DNA of 64,000 bases from assembly GCA_023664955.1 (NCBI GenBank), contig JAMPEV010000001.1:1296188-1360187 (forward strand). Reading direction: 5' to 3'. Positions 1 through 6,757 of this stretch are shown one piece after another. Source of the DNA: Duncaniella sp. GTDB taxonomy: Bacteria; Bacteroidota; Bacteroidia; Bacteroidales; Muribaculaceae. The notes beneath the pieces were generated by a model. It had not been told where the DNA came from. It ran no database searches and worked only from the letters and a program-made list of their open reading frames with translations. The translations under genes and the position numbers were made by a program. Within the stretch, counting starts at the first letter, position 1, and each line of letters starts with the position of its first letter.

Positions 1-752
1 ATTGGAATCGCATTTTTCAACGTAAAAATCATCTTTGTCTTTCCGGAGTAGAGTGCTTTTATCACCGATGCCGCTCCTTGCGAAGGCGTATAAATAACCG
101 GACGGACAAACAAGTTGCCAAGCGTATCTATTGCCTTATTACCCAAGGTTATGATATTTGTATTTACTACCCATGGGTCAGAGCAGTTAACTGTAATATC
201 TTTTTCTACCATTCTACTCGATAACATATAGGCATAAGCGGTAAGCATTTTCTTACTTCGACCATAGGTGACAAAACGATTATGATGGTGCTTTGACAAG
301 TAATCCCAGTCCTTCCTAAATCGAGCAATCTTTCGAGTGACAGAGGTAGTGAACACTATTGAACTACCTCCTATAAGAGTCGGTAATAATAGTTCTGTCA
401 TAATCACAGGTGAAAGGAAGTTAGTCTGGGTGGCTGATTCATAACCATCCTCAGTTATTTTAACTTCACCAGGCATTGTACCGGCATTATGAATTAACCC
501 CTTAACCTTGTAACCTTTTTTCTTTATATATTCCGCTAACACTCTTACCGATGCAAATGACTCCAAATCAAGGGGATGAGCTATCAATTCAGTCTTAACA
601 TCCTTATAAGATGATATAATAGCCTGAGCCTTACCCATGTTTCTGCATGCAAGGATTATACGATCCACTTTTTTGTTCACTAAATCCGCAACAATGCTCT
701 TGCCGATTCCACCGGTGGCTCCCGTAACAATATATGTGTATTTATCTTCCAT
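1..752 (-). CDS. Short-chain dehydrogenase/reductase (partial, 3' end outside window)
   Basis: The reading frame opens with ATG at 752 and runs without a stop to base 1, giving about 250 residues of an SDR. The cofactor loop TGATGGIG lies at about residue 10, NAG follows at about residue 90, and the catalytic Y-x-x-x-K appears as YGRSK. The layout resembles retinol-dehydrogenase or protochlorophyllide-reductase-like SDRs. Its ATG shares one base with the TAA stop of the upstream gene (TAATG), so the two are almost surely translationally coupled. It is the last visible gene of the operon that starts at 3575. From context (5-alpha-reductase and old-yellow-enzyme neighbours) I infer a hydroxysteroid dehydrogenase role; the substrate and the position oxidised cannot be read from the sequence. 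Confidence 0.85.
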   Translation of the reverse strand, partial: MEDKYTYIVTGATGGIGKSIVADLVNKKVDRIILACRNMGKAQAIISSYKDVKTELIAHPLDLESFASVRVLAEYIKKKGYKVKGLIHNAGTMPGEVKITEDGYESATQTNFLSPVIMTELLLPTLIGGSSIVFTTSVTRKIARFRKDWDYLSKHHHNRFVTYGRSKKMLTAYAYMLSSRMVEKDITVNCSDPWVVNTNIITLGNKAIDTLGNLFVRPVIYTPSQGAASVIKALYSGKTKMIFTLKNAIP

Positions 753-1561
753 TATTTGTCTAATCTGTCGAGCAATTTAGTTTTAATCATAACTCTCGCC
801 CATTCAGGCATTAATGAGACAACCACTATTGATATGCGGTTTAATATTCCATTGATATATTGAGCGTTACCATTTAATGCTCTTTTTACAGCTTTCTTCG
901 CGAAATGGCTTGGAGTGTCAAGAACTCCAAACATTACTCCAATTTTCTTTAATCGTTTAGAAAGTCCAAACAGGTCGGTGGCTATACCGCCGGGGCAGGC
1001 CACCATTACCATCACATTTTTCTCCTTCATCTCTATTCGGTAAGCTCGTGAAAACACCCTGACATAAGCTTTGGTGGCGGTATACATCGCAATTCCAGGC
1101 ATCGGCATCCAGCATGACATAGACGACATGTTTAAAATGTACCCGCCCCCATTCGAAGCCATTATATCCCCTATATCCTTAGTTAGAAAAGTAAGCGCCC
1201 TTATATGTAAATCGATATAAGTGTTTATACGATGTGCCGACAAATGGCTAACCGACTTGAAATCGAAAATCCCGGCATTATTTATTAGGATAAAAGGTGC
1301 TATTTGATTATCGCATAAGAATCTGACAATATCATCTACTCCTGACATTTCAGTTAAATCAACATTCAAATAGAATATTGATTTGCTGGTTTTTGATTTC
1401 AGTATCTCAGCCTTTTCGGCTAATTCTTTGGGCTGGTTACTGACCATCATGAGGTTACAACCCATCTCGCAAAGATACTCACAAAACTCATAACCGATAC
1501 CCGAAGAAGCGCCGGTCACTATAGCCCATTTATCCTGTATTTCATATATTTTAGTCCTCAC
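752..1561 (-). CDS. Short-chain dehydrogenase, HSD17B/ketoacyl-reductase-like (candidate hydroxysteroid dehydrogenase)
   Basis: This 269-residue SDR has the NAD(P) loop TGASSGIG at residues 16-23, NNAG near residue 93, a serine-rich NMSSMS strand and the catalytic YTATK near residue 158. The C-terminal third is hydrophobic (around ISIVVVSLMPEWARVMI), as in membrane-associated 17-beta-HSD/3-ketoacyl reductases. Translation starts at a GTG (1559-1561) overlapping the TGA stop of the upstream flavoprotein gene (1558-1560), a four-base GTGA coupling. The next SDR overlaps its stop by one base. I infer that it interconverts a hydroxyl and a keto group on a steroid or bile acid, because its co-transcribed partners look like ring-A delta4 reductases. 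A fatty-acid or sphingoid 3-ketoreductase role is the main alternative. Confidence 0.88.
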   Translation of the reverse strand: MRTKIYEIQDKWAIVTGASSGIGYEFCEYLCEMGCNLMMVSNQPKELAEKAEILKSKTSKSIFYLNVDLTEMSGVDDIVRFLCDNQIAPFILINNAGIFDFKSVSHLSAHRINTYIDLHIRALTFLTKDIGDIMASNGGGYILNMSSMSCWMPMPGIAMYTATKAYVRVFSRAYRIEMKEKNVMVMVACPGGIATDLFGLSKRLKKIGVMFGVLDTPSHFAKKAVKRALNGNAQYINGILNRISIVVVSLMPEWARVMIKTKLLDRLDK

Positions 1562-2799
1562 TTACCGCTATTTTTGCTACGACATTTTATAGCCTCTATT
1601 TCACGCTGAAGTGAGCGAGGCATATTCTCTATACATTTATGGCATGCCATTTCACGAGAATACATTCTCCCGATGCAATAATTCACATGCTCGCATCCGG
1701 AGGAATTGAGCCCCTCTCGCATTCGGTTCACAAAATCCGGCATCGTCAACAATGCACGTGCCATCTGCACAAATTCAAAATCGGCATCAAGTACCTTCTC
1801 AATTGATTCCCTTGTCGAGGCTCCTCCGACATATATCAACGGTAATTTTAATTCCTTTCTGAATAGTTTTGCATCTTCAAGGAAATAACAATCCTCATAT
1901 GGTACGGTCGGTATCATTATCTTACCAAACATTCTGACACCATATTTCATCCACCAACAGTCCATGTAATGAGTCAACGCGCCAATGGGCATCTCACCTC
2001 TCATAACATACATCGGTGCTTTGCTCACAAAGCCGCCACTTAACACCAATGCATGTGCACCGAGTCGTTCAAGCTCTTTCGCTATTTGTATGCCTTCGTC
2101 AATTTCTACTCCACCCTTGAATCCATCACGCATATTGGTCTTTACCACAACACCGAGATCACTTCCGGCGGCTTTCATAACTTCTTCCATGCAAAGCCGC
2201 ATAAAGCGCATCCTGTTATCTAATGAGCCACCCCATCGGTCATTTCGATGATTAGTATATGGTGACAAAAACTGACTTATGAGATACCCGTGCCCTGCGT
2301 GAATCTCTATACAGTCCATTCCGGCATCCCGTGCGAGACGAACTGCGTCTCCGAACGATTTCGACATCTTGACAATCTCATCATCAGTCATCCTTCTCAC
2401 CGGTGTGGGCGAATATATATTGAATCTTCCTGATGCAGAAATAGGCGTTTCTCCAGCTGTTGATTTATGTGACATATTGCCACAATGTCCTAATTGAATC
2501 GACACCTTGGCTCCGGTTTCATGTATGGCGTCCGTAATATCTCTTAACGATGGTATGATTTCAGGACGCATCCACAACTGTCTTGGAAATGAGAGTCCGT
2601 TTCTCGTCACTGATGCGTAGGCAATCGTAGTCATACCAACACCTCCTTTAGCAACCGACAAGTGATAGTCCTTAAGCATCTGAGATGGACTATTCCCCGG
2701 ACACATTCCTTCAAACGCGGCCGAACGAATTGTCCTGTTACGCAATGTTACCGGCCCGATTTTAGCAGGCGTAAATAGTTTTGAATCGGGATACTCCAT
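1558..2799 (-). CDS. Old-yellow-enzyme family FMN oxidoreductase (candidate 3-oxo-delta4-steroid 5-beta-reductase)
   Basis: This 413-residue TIM-barrel flavoprotein carries the family landmarks: LRNRTIRSAAFEG near the N-terminus, QLGHCGN, the segment EIHAGHGYLISQFLSPYTN followed by NDRWGGS, and the FMN-phosphate region YVGGASTRESIE. A cysteine cluster near the C-terminus (C-x5-C-x10-C-x2-C, about residues 366-390) resembles the 4Fe-4S site of 2,4-dienoyl-CoA-reductase-type members. Those relatives, including BaiCD and BaiH, are usually around 640-670 residues with a C-terminal FAD/NAD module; this protein stops right after the cysteines. It may therefore take electrons from a separate partner or directly from NAD(P)H. 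Six bases separate it from the upstream 5-alpha-reductase-like gene. Steroid or bile-acid delta4 reduction is inferred from context. Confidence 0.88.
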   Translation of the reverse strand: MEYPDSKLFTPAKIGPVTLRNRTIRSAAFEGMCPGNSPSQMLKDYHLSVAKGGVGMTTIAYASVTRNGLSFPRQLWMRPEIIPSLRDITDAIHETGAKVSIQLGHCGNMSHKSTAGETPISASGRFNIYSPTPVRRMTDDEIVKMSKSFGDAVRLARDAGMDCIEIHAGHGYLISQFLSPYTNHRNDRWGGSLDNRMRFMRLCMEEVMKAAGSDLGVVVKTNMRDGFKGGVEIDEGIQIAKELERLGAHALVLSGGFVSKAPMYVMRGEMPIGALTHYMDCWWMKYGVRMFGKIMIPTVPYEDCYFLEDAKLFRKELKLPLIYVGGASTRESIEKVLDADFEFVQMARALLTMPDFVNRMREGLNSSGCEHVNYCIGRMYSREMACHKCIENMPRSLQREIEAIKCRSKNSGK

Positions 2800-2804
2800 A
2801 TCTT

Positions 2805-3575
2805 TTAGTATATATAAGGTATTATTTTTTTCAGTTGTATTGAATCAAACTCGGTAGGAAATTCCTTAGAGTAACGTTTGTATATCTTTCCGGCTCTCGG
2901 TGCAAGATTTGCAAATGTCCATAGAGCAAACACGGCTCCGGCACACGACCATGTCAATACGGCAAAACCTGTCCATTCCACAAATTCTCCAAAATAATTG
3001 GCGGAAGTGACATATTTAAACATCCCTTTCTTTGGCAAATAATGTTTAGTGTCACCGGGCTTACGCAAATTTCTTATCACTGAATCACTATGTATATTTA
3101 TTGCCATTCCGGCTATGAATATTAATGTTCCTATGATAAACTGGGGAGATTCAAGCCAAGTAGACGGATAACGATCCGGTGATGAAACATAAAAAATCCA
3201 TCCTCCTTGCATAAACGCATTGAGAATGTTGAAACATATTCCACACACAATGATACTCAATGGCATTTTGCCTTTGGACTTAATTAAGAATGGGAAAATG
3301 AACGAGCGTTGAAAATAATGAACCTCGAAAAGCAGGAACATTATCAATGGTGCAATATCAAAACGCCGAGTAGAGTGCCACCACAGTATACCCATAGCGA
3401 TAAACACAGGAGCTTCCATTAGCACCCATCCAAGCCTGTTATTCACTGTTATACCCCATTTCTTTGTATACATCATCCCATAACCTGCTTCAACATAATG
3501 TAAAGCTATAAACACAATGGCGGCTGTTACGGCCATTGCTATTAAGAATATGTCAAACGACCCCTCTCCTATCAT
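2805..3575 (-). CDS. Membrane 3-oxo-5-alpha-steroid 4-dehydrogenase (steroid 5-alpha-reductase) family protein
   Basis: This 256-residue integral membrane protein has about six or seven hydrophobic helices. Its C-terminal domain fits the SRD5A family: SANYFGEFVEWTGFAVLTW, then NLAPRAGKIYKRYSKEF and the terminal KKIIPYIY, matching the conserved N-Y-F-G-E-x-x-E-W, L-x-P-R-A and I-P-Y signatures. Family members reduce the delta4 double bond of 3-oxo steroids with NADPH to 5-alpha products. It is the first gene of a four-gene operon and has its own promoter. A related set of 5-alpha-reductase, OYE-type 5-beta-reductase and HSDH has been reported in gut Bacteroidetes converting 3-oxo-delta4-lithocholic acid to isoallolithocholic acid; assigning this operon to that pathway is my inference. 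Confidence 0.88.
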   Translation of the reverse strand: MIGEGSFDIFLIAMAVTAAIVFIALHYVEAGYGMMYTKKWGITVNNRLGWVLMEAPVFIAMGILWWHSTRRFDIAPLIMFLLFEVHYFQRSFIFPFLIKSKGKMPLSIIVCGICFNILNAFMQGGWIFYVSSPDRYPSTWLESPQFIIGTLIFIAGMAINIHSDSVIRNLRKPGDTKHYLPKKGMFKYVTSANYFGEFVEWTGFAVLTWSCAGAVFALWTFANLAPRAGKIYKRYSKEFPTEFDSIQLKKIIPYIY

Positions 3576-3594: not shown

Positions 3595-3623
3595 CAAAAT
3601 TATATAATAATTATGATATTCAA
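3595..3623 (-). promoter_or_regulatory. Bacteroidetes-type promoter of the steroid-reductase operon
   Basis: On the minus strand the -7 element TAATTTTG (3595-3602) matches TAnnTTTG exactly and is preceded after 18 bases by TTG (3621-3623). The start codon at 3575 lies about 13 bases downstream of the expected start site, so the leader is very short. Confidence 0.6.
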
Positions 3624-3765: not shown

Positions 3766-5097
3766 CTATTTTTCGTTTGCCTTGTCAAGATCTTTAAGGT
3801 CGTAGTTAAGTTTATCCTTATCATCCTCATTAGCTACGACAATCTTAGGAACACGGCCGTTCACAGTGACATTTAACAACTTAACATTTGGGTAGTTGCA
3901 ATGAAACAAATCAGATTTTGCCCTTAGTGTCAGATTCTCCATGATGAAATTCTCAACAGTGTCATCATTATTACCTGCTATGGCACCAAGACCTTCACAT
4001 GACACATTAATATTCTTCATAAGCACATTTTTAACCACTCCCACCGGATGCTCATTTGTACCTTCCAGAGTGAAAAACTGCTTCCAGGGAAGCATTTCTA
4101 TAATCGTACCGCATCTTCCCGTCACATTCTCGATAGTTATATTTTCGTAAGTCTGATACGTGTCCGGACGCATTTTAAGACGTAAAAGTGAACACTCATT
4201 TTCAAGTTTACAATTACGCAAGGTAATATTCTTGGCATGAAAACATTCACTTCCGAGTGTGATTGTGCCATGGAGGTTAGGACCGAACGTGCAGTCCTCG
4301 ACCAAAATATCCTCCACTGAGCCATTTTCAGGTGACTGATGCGCAAATACTCCTTTGCCGCCCTTCATACACACACCATCGTCGTCACAATTAAGATAAC
4401 ATCCCCTAACTGTCACCTTCTTACATCCGTCAAGATCAATGGCATCACTACTCGGGGCTCTCACCGGCTCCACGGGTGCATAGACTTCGCAATTCTCTAT
4501 CAACACATTTTGACAGAGATAAAGGTGAGTGGTCCAGAATGCGGAGTTAATAAGATGAACGCCTGATAATTTAACATTGTCGCATCCCCAAAGGAACACC
4601 AAGCGTGGCCGGCGCACTTCAAGGTTGGTCCAAGCGCGATTCTCTTTACGCGCCTTCTCAACGTAGTCCCAGAATTGCACCCACAAATTATAGCCGTTAC
4701 CATTAATCGTGCCGGGTCCTTTAATCTGGAAGCCATCGACATAGTAGGCATTTACAAGAGCCGGATGGTAATATATGCTACGCCCTTCCATGCGTGAGGG
4801 CATGAGGGGATAATCTGAGATATTATCTGATCCTTTTAACATTCCACCCTCACGGATTTCCAAGGTAGTACCGGGCTTGAAGAAGAGTGCCCCGGATAGA
4901 AATGTCCCCTTCGGTATCACCACATTTCCTCCCCCATCGGATTCTGCAATATCAATCACACGCTGAATTTGGGCCGTTTGAACCTTAGTGCTGTCTGATG
5001 AAACTTGATAGTCGGTGATTACATAGTCTTTTGCACTTGCCATCGTTGCCATGGTCAAGATACAACCCAAAGAAGAAATTTTAAGTAGATTTTTCAT
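3766..5097 (-). CDS. Secreted GH28 polygalacturonase (pectinase)
   Basis: This 443-residue protein has an N-terminal signal peptide ending near MATMASA and a right-handed parallel beta-helix typical of GH28. Active-site landmarks are visible: SSDAIDLD (variant of NTDGID), NCDDDGVCMKGG supplying the adjacent aspartates, LHGTITLGSE in place of G-H-G, and LRLKMRP in place of R-I-K. These variants are common in Bacteroidetes GH28 enzymes that act on galacturonan or rhamnogalacturonan. It probably cleaves oligogalacturonides in the periplasm or at the cell surface. The gene follows the double esterase at 5129-6757 by 31 bases with no promoter between them, so the two form an operon coupling deacetylation with depolymerisation. 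It resembles the GH28 at 23753 more than the one at 38523. Confidence 0.92.
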   Translation of the reverse strand: MKNLLKISSLGCILTMATMASAKDYVITDYQVSSDSTKVQTAQIQRVIDIAESDGGGNVVIPKGTFLSGALFFKPGTTLEIREGGMLKGSDNISDYPLMPSRMEGRSIYYHPALVNAYYVDGFQIKGPGTINGNGYNLWVQFWDYVEKARKENRAWTNLEVRRPRLVFLWGCDNVKLSGVHLINSAFWTTHLYLCQNVLIENCEVYAPVEPVRAPSSDAIDLDGCKKVTVRGCYLNCDDDGVCMKGGKGVFAHQSPENGSVEDILVEDCTFGPNLHGTITLGSECFHAKNITLRNCKLENECSLLRLKMRPDTYQTYENITIENVTGRCGTIIEMLPWKQFFTLEGTNEHPVGVVKNVLMKNINVSCEGLGAIAGNNDDTVENFIMENLTLRAKSDLFHCNYPNVKLLNVTVNGRVPKIVVANEDDKDKLNYDLKDLDKANEK

Positions 5098-5128
5098 TAG
5101 TTCTCTTCTTTATAGTGAACGTAAAAAT

Positions 5129-6757
5129 TTATTTTAATATTTTATCCAAGAAAGCAACAACATAGTCGACAGTAGGTTCCATCCATGGGTGGAAGAACCA
5201 GAAGGGATGCACATCTACCGGAATTGAATTGCGTTCGGAGTAGATGCCATTTTCTTTGTATATGTCAATGAGAATATCGCGTCCGTCACTATAGCGGGGC
5301 AGTCCGCTATTAATAAAGCATACAGGTGCCGATTTGTCTGTCACCCATAGTACTGATGAGGCTTCTTCCCAATTTTCTTTTGCCTTCTCATACAATCCAC
5401 CAAGCCACACGGCATTGATTGGTAGCTCCCCCTTTTGGGCTAACTTATCTTTCGCCTCCGCAATGTTGCTCTCCGACACGAATGTACATGTACCATCCAT
5501 ATTGATTATAGCCTGGACTTCGCTCGATTCGTCAAGCCATTCGCCATATCCCTCATGTCGCTTCGAGCCATTGGTGACACCTGCCAGTGTGGCGAGTTGC
5601 GCTCCGGCCGAACATCCTGAAACCGCAATTTTACTTGGATCGATACCATACTTTCCAGCATTCTTCCTCACCCATCTCACTGCCGTTTTAATGTCATGAA
5701 AACCGGCCGGATACTTGGCTTCAGGGATATGACGATATTCTACCGGAATTGTGACATATCCGCGAGAGGCTATACGTTGAGCCATTGGCACCTGCAGAGA
5801 CTTATCGCCTGAGTTCCATCCTCCGCCGTGAATCATTATCAAAGCCGGGTAAACAACGTCGTCGTCCGGACGGTAAATATCGACATGTAAATCACGGTCT
5901 CCGTAAGGTGAATTACAATGTGTCGTGTATACTACGTCTTTGTACTCCTTAAGTCCTCGAGTTTGGTCGGGTAACGCCAAAGTAACCTCAGGATGACGCT
6001 TAATAACCTTTACATAAGTTGAATGTGTGGTAAATGAGGTGTCGCGAGGCACTTTGCAGTCTGTACGCTTTCCGCAGCAGCCCATATTTCCAACAAGCGA
6101 TTTCAAGAACGTCTCTCCTCTATCAACCATAAGGTTATGACCTTTGTCATTAAGATGCGCCGTGTCATTTGGCCCTTGGAAATAGATGGCACGGAATTCG
6201 GGATTGTTTACATCGATAATATCTGGGGAAGAAACATCAAGAACGGGAATACCATATTTATCACAGGCCTTATGTATCTCAGCAATAACCTCCTTAAAAT
6301 ATTTCCTGTCAACACCCCAAGGGGTAACATAACCGATGGGGTTATATGGATATTTCTGTTTTAATCCAGCTAAAAGGGAATCCAGTCCGGCACTAAATTT
6401 CGACCATGCGCCTTCATGTTTACGCAAATAATCGGCATCATTATGACCTGCTATGATTAAAATCACATCGGCCGAATCAGGCAATTCCTTATATCTGACA
6501 GTCATCGCAGGCCCAAAACCATCTTCAGTCCTATCGAAAGCTATACTACTTCCATTCCTGCCAAAATTAACATAGTTCATCCCTAACTTTTCAGCCACTT
6601 TGTAGTGCCATGCCTCAGAGAACGGACGCTTATGATTTCTGACATAACTATCACCAAACACACAAAGCGTCCTGACAAGCAATGCTTCAGTGCCATCATC
6701 CGCTTGACACATGACACTCACAAGCATAAATGCTAATAGGATTTTCAGTATTTTCAT
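5129..6757 (-). CDS. Secreted bifunctional esterase: SGNH/GDSL hydrolase fused to alpha/beta hydrolase
   Basis: The 542-residue protein contains a signal peptide and two hydrolase domains. Residues about 28-225 form an SGNH hydrolase: block I FGDSYV with Ser37, Asn106 in GHND, and the block V Asp198/His201 pair in NDTAH. Residues about 275-540 form an acetyl-esterase or feruloyl-esterase-like alpha/beta hydrolase: oxyanion motif HGGGWN at 310-315, nucleophile elbow GCSAGA with Ser383, and a candidate histidine in the VHPFWFFHPW segment. Both domains look catalytically complete. With the GH28 gene immediately downstream, removal of acetyl (or other ester) groups from pectin is the likely role. 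The fusion suggests two ester positions are handled by one polypeptide. Exact bond specificity is unknown. Confidence 0.88.
   Translation of the reverse strand: MKILKILLAFMLVSVMCQADDGTEALLVRTLCVFGDSYVRNHKRPFSEAWHYKVAEKLGMNYVNFGRNGSSIAFDRTEDGFGPAMTVRYKELPDSADVILIIAGHNDADYLRKHEGAWSKFSAGLDSLLAGLKQKYPYNPIGYVTPWGVDRKYFKEVIAEIHKACDKYGIPVLDVSSPDIIDVNNPEFRAIYFQGPNDTAHLNDKGHNLMVDRGETFLKSLVGNMGCCGKRTDCKVPRDTSFTTHSTYVKVIKRHPEVTLALPDQTRGLKEYKDVVYTTHCNSPYGDRDLHVDIYRPDDDVVYPALIMIHGGGWNSGDKSLQVPMAQRIASRGYVTIPVEYRHIPEAKYPAGFHDIKTAVRWVRKNAGKYGIDPSKIAVSGCSAGAQLATLAGVTNGSKRHEGYGEWLDESSEVQAIINMDGTCTFVSESNIAEAKDKLAQKGELPINAVWLGGLYEKAKENWEEASSVLWVTDKSAPVCFINSGLPRYSDGRDILIDIYKENGIYSERNSIPVDVHPFWFFHPWMEPTVDYVVAFLDKILK

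Follow-up and report, generated by a model that had tools for sequence, protein, structure and literature searches.

We analysed a stretch of 64,000 nucleotides (hereafter the window) from the genome of a Duncaniella sp. (GenBank assembly GCA_023664955.1, contig JAMPEV010000001.1; G000:C11:1296188-1360187; host genome 2.18 Mb, 83% complete), in which four genes lie head to tail on the minus strand. The first (2805-3575) encodes a 256-residue SRD5A-type membrane protein matching PF02544, a candidate 3-oxo-delta4-steroid 5-alpha-reductase (5AR), and is followed by a gene (1558-2799) for a 413-residue flavin mononucleotide (FMN) reductase of the Old Yellow Enzyme (OYE) family (PF00724), a candidate 5-beta-reductase (5BR) without an FAD domain. 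Two short-chain dehydrogenases/reductases (SDRs) complete the set: SDR1 (752-1561, GTG start, 269 residues, PF00106), a candidate 3beta-hydroxysteroid dehydrogenase (HSDH), and SDR2, a second HSDH candidate, whose frame is open at the window edge (3-752). The 3' end of SDR2, which an earlier reading made from the letters alone (the sequence-only reading) had left outside the window, is found on the contig beyond the edge, where the gene finishes at 273 residues (window -69 to 752; L002:12119-12940, minus strand) with 70 bases outside the window. The open reading frames, the Pfam matches and this extension of the contig bear out, on the minus strand, the four-gene operon which that reading had proposed. 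The OYE and SDR1 genes overlap by 4 bases (1558-1561) and the two SDR genes by 1 base (752), as it had given, while the gap between SRD5A and OYE measures 5 bases (2800-2804) and not 6. The Bacteroides-type promoter-like site that it placed ahead of the operon, TTG-N18-TAATTTTG, is present letter for letter at 3595-3623 on the minus strand. Such a site is weak evidence by itself, because the window holds 4 occurrences of the looser pattern TTG-N18-TANNTTTG against 0.88 expected from shuffles.

The first protein scores 137.6 bits against the Pfam family Steroid_dh (PF02544, cut-off 22.6) and 29.5 bits against DUF1295, with no ICMT model among the Pfam matches listed, and its nearest solved relatives are PDB 7c83 (E = 9.2e-53) and 7bw1 (E = 1e-38), the enoyl-CoA reductase 22of being a far weaker match (E = 1.4e-6). 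The positions that correspond to E57, Y91, N160, D164, R168, R171, N193, E197 and Y235 of human SRD5A2, of which we take E57 and Y91 to be the catalytic glutamate and tyrosine and the others to be NADPH-site residues, are conserved as E54, Y87, N160, D164, R168, R171, N193, E197 and Y235. All nine are invariant in an alignment of 27 rows (like the 26-row SDR1 and 23-row SDR2 alignments used below, a subset chosen by length and spread; the full SRD5A alignment has 111 rows and 100 distinct sequences), and of its 67 invariant columns, 36 are identical in both 7c83 and 7bw1. By homology, then, the first protein of the operon is a true SRD5A relative with its catalytic and cofactor positions conserved, in agreement with the assignment made from the letters. 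The possibility, raised at that time, of a DUF1295- or ICMT-like protein that has lost the NADPH-site residues does not fit these scores and conserved positions, which also rule out a TECR-type enoyl-CoA reductase.

The second protein carries the FMN-binding TIM barrel of the OYE family (192.7 bits against Oxidored_FMN, PF00724), and its AlphaFold model (pLDDT 87.3, pTM 0.90) finds its best structural matches in NCR, TMADH and HisD. It is 413 residues long, against 660-729 for the matched chains of NCR, TMADH, HisD and 1ps9, with a single Pfam domain listed, and the C-terminal FAD/NAD(P)H domain of the Fe-S/FAD OYE family (FadH, TMADH, NCR, BaiCD) was not found in it. The protein nevertheless has a cysteine-bearing tail, so that the plain minimal enzyme implied by the earlier term "short OYE" does not describe it. 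The tail motif, C369-x-H371-x-N-Y-C375-x10-C386 (1642-1695, minus strand), is conserved at C369, H371, C375 and C386 in all 87 distinct aligned sequences, the window protein included (95 rows in all). The cysteines are also present in further OYE tails outside this alignment, where two deeper relatives have arginine at position 371, which weakens H371 as an invariant ligand. From the motif spacing of the Fe-S/FAD OYE family, the second cysteine of a four-cysteine cluster would be expected at position 372, which is occupied by S, V, T, A, I, R or N in the 87 distinct sequences. The conservation pattern suggests that the three-cysteine tail may be a metal-cluster site, and an OYE with such a tail and no FAD domain poses the question of its electron source.

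Both SDRs match adh_short (PF00106; 138.9 bits for SDR1 and 80.4 bits for the part of SDR2 inside the window) and conserve the active-site serine, tyrosine and lysine of the family: S146/S147, Y160 and K164 of SDR1 are invariant in 26 aligned sequences, and S137, Y163 and K167 of SDR2 in 23.

To follow the four genes as a unit, we ran the SRD5A protein against genome contigs, which gave 106 confirmed relatives; the best 80 of the 106 were retained, and 79 of these loci were scored with profiles built from them (L112 was left unscored, as no frame had SRD5A as its best profile). An OYE gene lies near SRD5A, that is, at most 7 kb away, in 76/79 scored loci, which is above chance, and the two are within 500 bases of each other in 69 of these and 1.6-4.2 kb apart in the other seven. 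Both SDRs are near SRD5A in 46 of the 79, SDR1 without SDR2 in 20 (one of them weak: L051, 95 and 60 bits) and SDR2 without SDR1 in 3. The distances of all four families co-vary pairwise (r = 0.80-0.93, with 0 of 200 permutations as high), a pattern for which shared species history could suffice. A further 20 genomes were picked by hand, 12 from 43 rows at 51-69% SRD5A identity and 8 from 34 full-length rows at 36-43%. OYE was found in the fetched stretch of 11 of the 12 (SRD5A 51-65% identical), whereas in all eight loci with a distant SRD5A (38-43% identical; L197-L204, drawn from a second tier of order-level homologues) OYE, SDR1, SDR2 and PCMD, a family discussed below, were absent. This implies that the partnership with OYE and the SDRs, as judged from these gene neighbourhoods, appears to be restricted to one SRD5A clade.

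This arrangement has a published precedent. In Bacteroidota, according to the available text of PMC10382948, the 5AR gene shares a cluster with a predicted 3beta-HSDH and with an NADH:flavin oxidoreductase for which a 5-beta-reductase role has been hypothesised, the 5AR acts on 3-oxo-delta4-lithocholic acid (LCA), and its disruption in Parabacteroides merdae prevented the formation of alloLCA derivatives. For the Bacteroidetes route to iso-allo-deoxycholic acid (iso-allo-DCA), the activities named in the available text of PMC9645264 are 3-alpha-HSDH, 5BR, 5AR and 3beta-HSDH, four activities that the four genes described here could supply. In the window the 5AR candidate is likewise clustered with an OYE of the NADH:flavin oxidoreductase type and an SDR, and the likeness to this gut cluster which the sequence-only reading had pointed out is upheld by the account in PMC10382948, as far as its available text goes. 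From the anatomy of the locus and this precedent we infer that the four genes would be transcribed together and probably form one operon for the isomerisation and reduction of the A/B ring junction of 3-oxo steroids, with passage between 5-beta and 5-alpha forms through 3-oxo-delta4 intermediates. One SDR would oxidise a 3-hydroxy 5-beta steroid at C3, the OYE would interconvert the 3-oxo-5-beta and 3-oxo-delta4 forms, reduction of the delta4 bond with NADPH by the SRD5A enzyme would give the 5-alpha form, and the other SDR, more likely SDR1, would set the 3-beta hydroxyl. With lithocholate as the substrate, the product would be isoallolithocholate.

Several observations weigh against this interpretation. 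The OYE is without the FAD domain of the BaiCD-type 5-beta-reductases. PF02544 has matches in 3 of 14 control genomes, 2 of them above its cut-off, so that membership of the family is no proof of a steroid substrate. No OYE was seen in 3/79 scored loci (L041, L077 and L086, with the contig of L041 ending inside an OYE) or in 5/29 short loci of the family sample (L005-L033, 1.5 kb flanks). Of the 12 further genomes in which SRD5A is 51-65% identical, only 3 have both SDRs, 3 have SDR1 only and 2 have SDR2 only. The second SDR had been taken for a local addition, which it is not, being present with the first in 46 of the 79 scored loci, but few of these picked genomes have the pair. Among the matches listed, moreover, SDR1 and SDR2 fall below every NCBIfam cut-off, and neither has a close solved relative. 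Attempts to name them by NCBIfam or PDB failed for this reason, and the sequence is silent on which of them is specific for the 3-alpha or the 3-beta hydroxyl, but SDR1 is the better candidate for the 3beta-HSDH because it is more often the one retained where a single SDR is present. The same retention, in 20 loci that lack SDR2 (L051 again being weak), together with the weak likeness of SDR2 to any solved SDR (best 3rd5, E = 1.6e-11), leaves a real but less than even chance that SDR2, instead of serving this route as a 3-HSDH, acts at C7, C12, C17 or C20 of the steroid or on some other small molecule. Two observations speak against this alternative: in the window the start of SDR2 overlaps the stop of SDR1, and its distances co-vary with those of SDR1 (r = 0.93 in 47 loci).

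The origin of the carriers also weighs against the interpretation insofar as it is framed for bile acids. Of 80 record titles, 17 name rumen, reticulum or omasum, 12 more belong to RUG genomes, which we take to be of rumen origin, and 9 name hindgut or faeces, with most of the others giving no site, although such titles are fallible (L040 and L077 carry non-Bacteroidota names). The carriers include cultured ones such as Barnesiella An22 and An55 (loci L054 and L063). Bile acids should be scarce in the forestomach, and since many carriers come from there, a role limited to bile acids is doubtful. It is therefore conceivable, if on balance unlikely, that the main steroid substrates of the operon are steroid hormones or derivatives of plant sterols, with the conversion of bile acids as a side activity. 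The forestomach titles are in keeping with this, as is the fact that the closest solved relatives of the SRD5A protein, 7c83 and 7bw1, are steroid reductases; the titles that name hindgut or faeces are not, the genome collection may simply be rich in rumen samples, and the published Bacteroidota 5AR acts on 3-oxo-delta4-LCA (PMC10382948, available text). A rumen study describes bile acid metabolism genes and the transformation of added bile acids in the rumen (PMC11193847, available text). With the forestomach carriers, the question of the substrate can be put to the test. In favour of the proposed route, the host genome also encodes a protein of the choloylglycine hydrolase family (PF02275, 122.7 bits; G000:C11:985053-985913, L196), possibly a bile salt hydrolase, although PF02275 has matches in 4 of the 14 control genomes as well.

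A further gene family is associated with the operon in other species. A protein of the PCMD family (PF13201), with a start that by eye resembles a secretion signal, is encoded within 7 kb of SRD5A in 26/79 scored loci, in several arrangements. In the Muribaculaceae family sample PCMD is found in 164/198 genomes, comprising all 61 that carry SRD5A and 103 of the 137 that do not (Fisher P = 8e-7, uncorrected for kinship). We rejected PCMD as a marker of the operon on account of those 103 genomes, and the association is a lead and not a marker; in nine PCMD regions, no neighbour family is common to more than 3. The PCMD gene of the host genome (L187:4703-5677; G000:C11:1360702-1361676) lies about 61 kb from the operon, some 0.5 kb beyond the right-hand boundary of the window. 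The frequency of PCMD, both near the operon and across the family, would suit an operon that acts on an endogenous bacterial lipid and not on a steroid, with the secreted PCMD protein encoded nearby in other species taking part in the same envelope process. We regard this as improbable, because the SRD5A protein is much closer to the steroid reductases (E = 9.2e-53 and 1e-38) than to 22of (E = 1.4e-6), because SRD5A is present in only 61 of the 198 family genomes, a patchy pattern for an envelope pathway, and because a wider search of the genus found an OYE orthologue in none of the 26 other members covered (weaker OYE matches in 2). Returning to the steroid operon, one could extend it into a self-contained inverter of the steroid ring junction in gut and forestomach Bacteroidales, in which a single transcript would carry 3-alpha-hydroxy 5-beta steroids to 3-beta-hydroxy 5-alpha products, with the OYE as a three-cysteine Fe-S enzyme and the secreted PCMD protein as a linked sterol-handling partner in many species. 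This version is speculative and we think it rather unlikely as a whole; in it the OYE, lacking an FAD/NAD(P)H domain, would have to exchange electrons with a separate partner.

Within the genus, SRD5A was found in 0/16 other members included in the family sample. The operon stands at a synteny break beside a conserved block that begins with a Wzi-like gene 27 bases downstream of SDR2. This block (L002:7050-12091), whose genes were named by eye, is NeuB-like, ATP-grasp-like, NDP-sugar epimerase-like, lipocalin-like and Wzi-like. In nine stretches from genus-mates around the Wzi homologue, Wzi, the lipocalin-like gene and the epimerase recur in 9/9 and NeuB in 7/9; the operon proteins and GH28 have no match in these stretches, seven of which extend 11-13 kb upstream of Wzi and two of which end about 720 and about 180 bases upstream of it. 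On these results the operon is patchily distributed, having been either acquired in this lineage or lost from the other members of the genus. Directly upstream of the operon lies a GH28 rhamnogalacturonidase-like gene (3766-5097; NF049899, 513 bits, below the cut-off of 650), as had been noted in the pectin neighbourhood claimed for the operon, but in the compared genus-mates the equivalent position has no GH28 gene nearby, their best GH28 copies being on different contigs or at least about 100 kb distant, and a link to pectin degradation is unsupported. The stretch 3766-6757, which holds the GH28 gene and one encoding GDSL-lipase and BD-FAE esterase domains, is unseen beside the Wzi block of these genus-mates. 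What endures of the sequence-only interpretation is the SRD5A type and the resemblance to the gut cluster, whereas the local second SDR, the pectin link and the minimal OYE do not.

If the proposed function is true, Muribaculaceae would be added to the bacteria that could produce 5-alpha steroids and the "flat" bile acids of the allo type. Products of this type have been reported to promote regulatory T (Treg) cells (PMC11271093) and to inhibit Gram-positive pathogens (PMC10382948), according to the available text of each. This analysis adds the spread of the second SDR, the cysteine tail of the OYE and the domain that it lacks, the clade-specific linkage, for which the distant SRD5A homologues serve as a negative control, the association with PCMD and the reservation about bile-acid specificity.

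Compared with known systems, the SRD5A protein of the window belongs to the same family as the bacterial PbSRD5A (7c83; 92 of 241 aligned residues identical, 38%) and human SRD5A2 (7bw1; 84 of 236, 36%) and keeps the key positions of both, and it differs from them in that its gene is grouped with those of an OYE and SDRs. The Bacteroidota 5AR/5BR/3beta-HSDH cluster is reportedly described in Sato 2021 and Li 2021. In P. merdae and others, this cluster likewise combines an SRD5A-type reductase with an NADH:flavin oxidoreductase and an SDR (PMC10382948, available text); the window operon, likened to it by gene content, differs in its second SDR, which the original papers may or may not show. The Firmicutes bile acid 5-alpha-reductases BaiP and BaiJ share the net reaction and differ from the membrane-associated Bacteroidetes enzymes, as stated in the available text of PMC9645264. 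The clostridial 5-beta-reductases BaiCD and ci2350 share the OYE family and the 5-beta-reduction of 3-oxo-delta4 steroids, the activity proposed here (PMC12238238, available text). The window OYE scores 182.7 bits on the NCBIfam BaiCD model against a cut-off of 825. It differs from the clostridial enzymes in its length of 413 residues, in the missing FAD/NAD(P)H domain and in the replacement of the second cysteine of the cluster motif. The system is of a known kind: three of its four genes match a cluster already described from related gut bacteria, and the fourth recurs in many other species.

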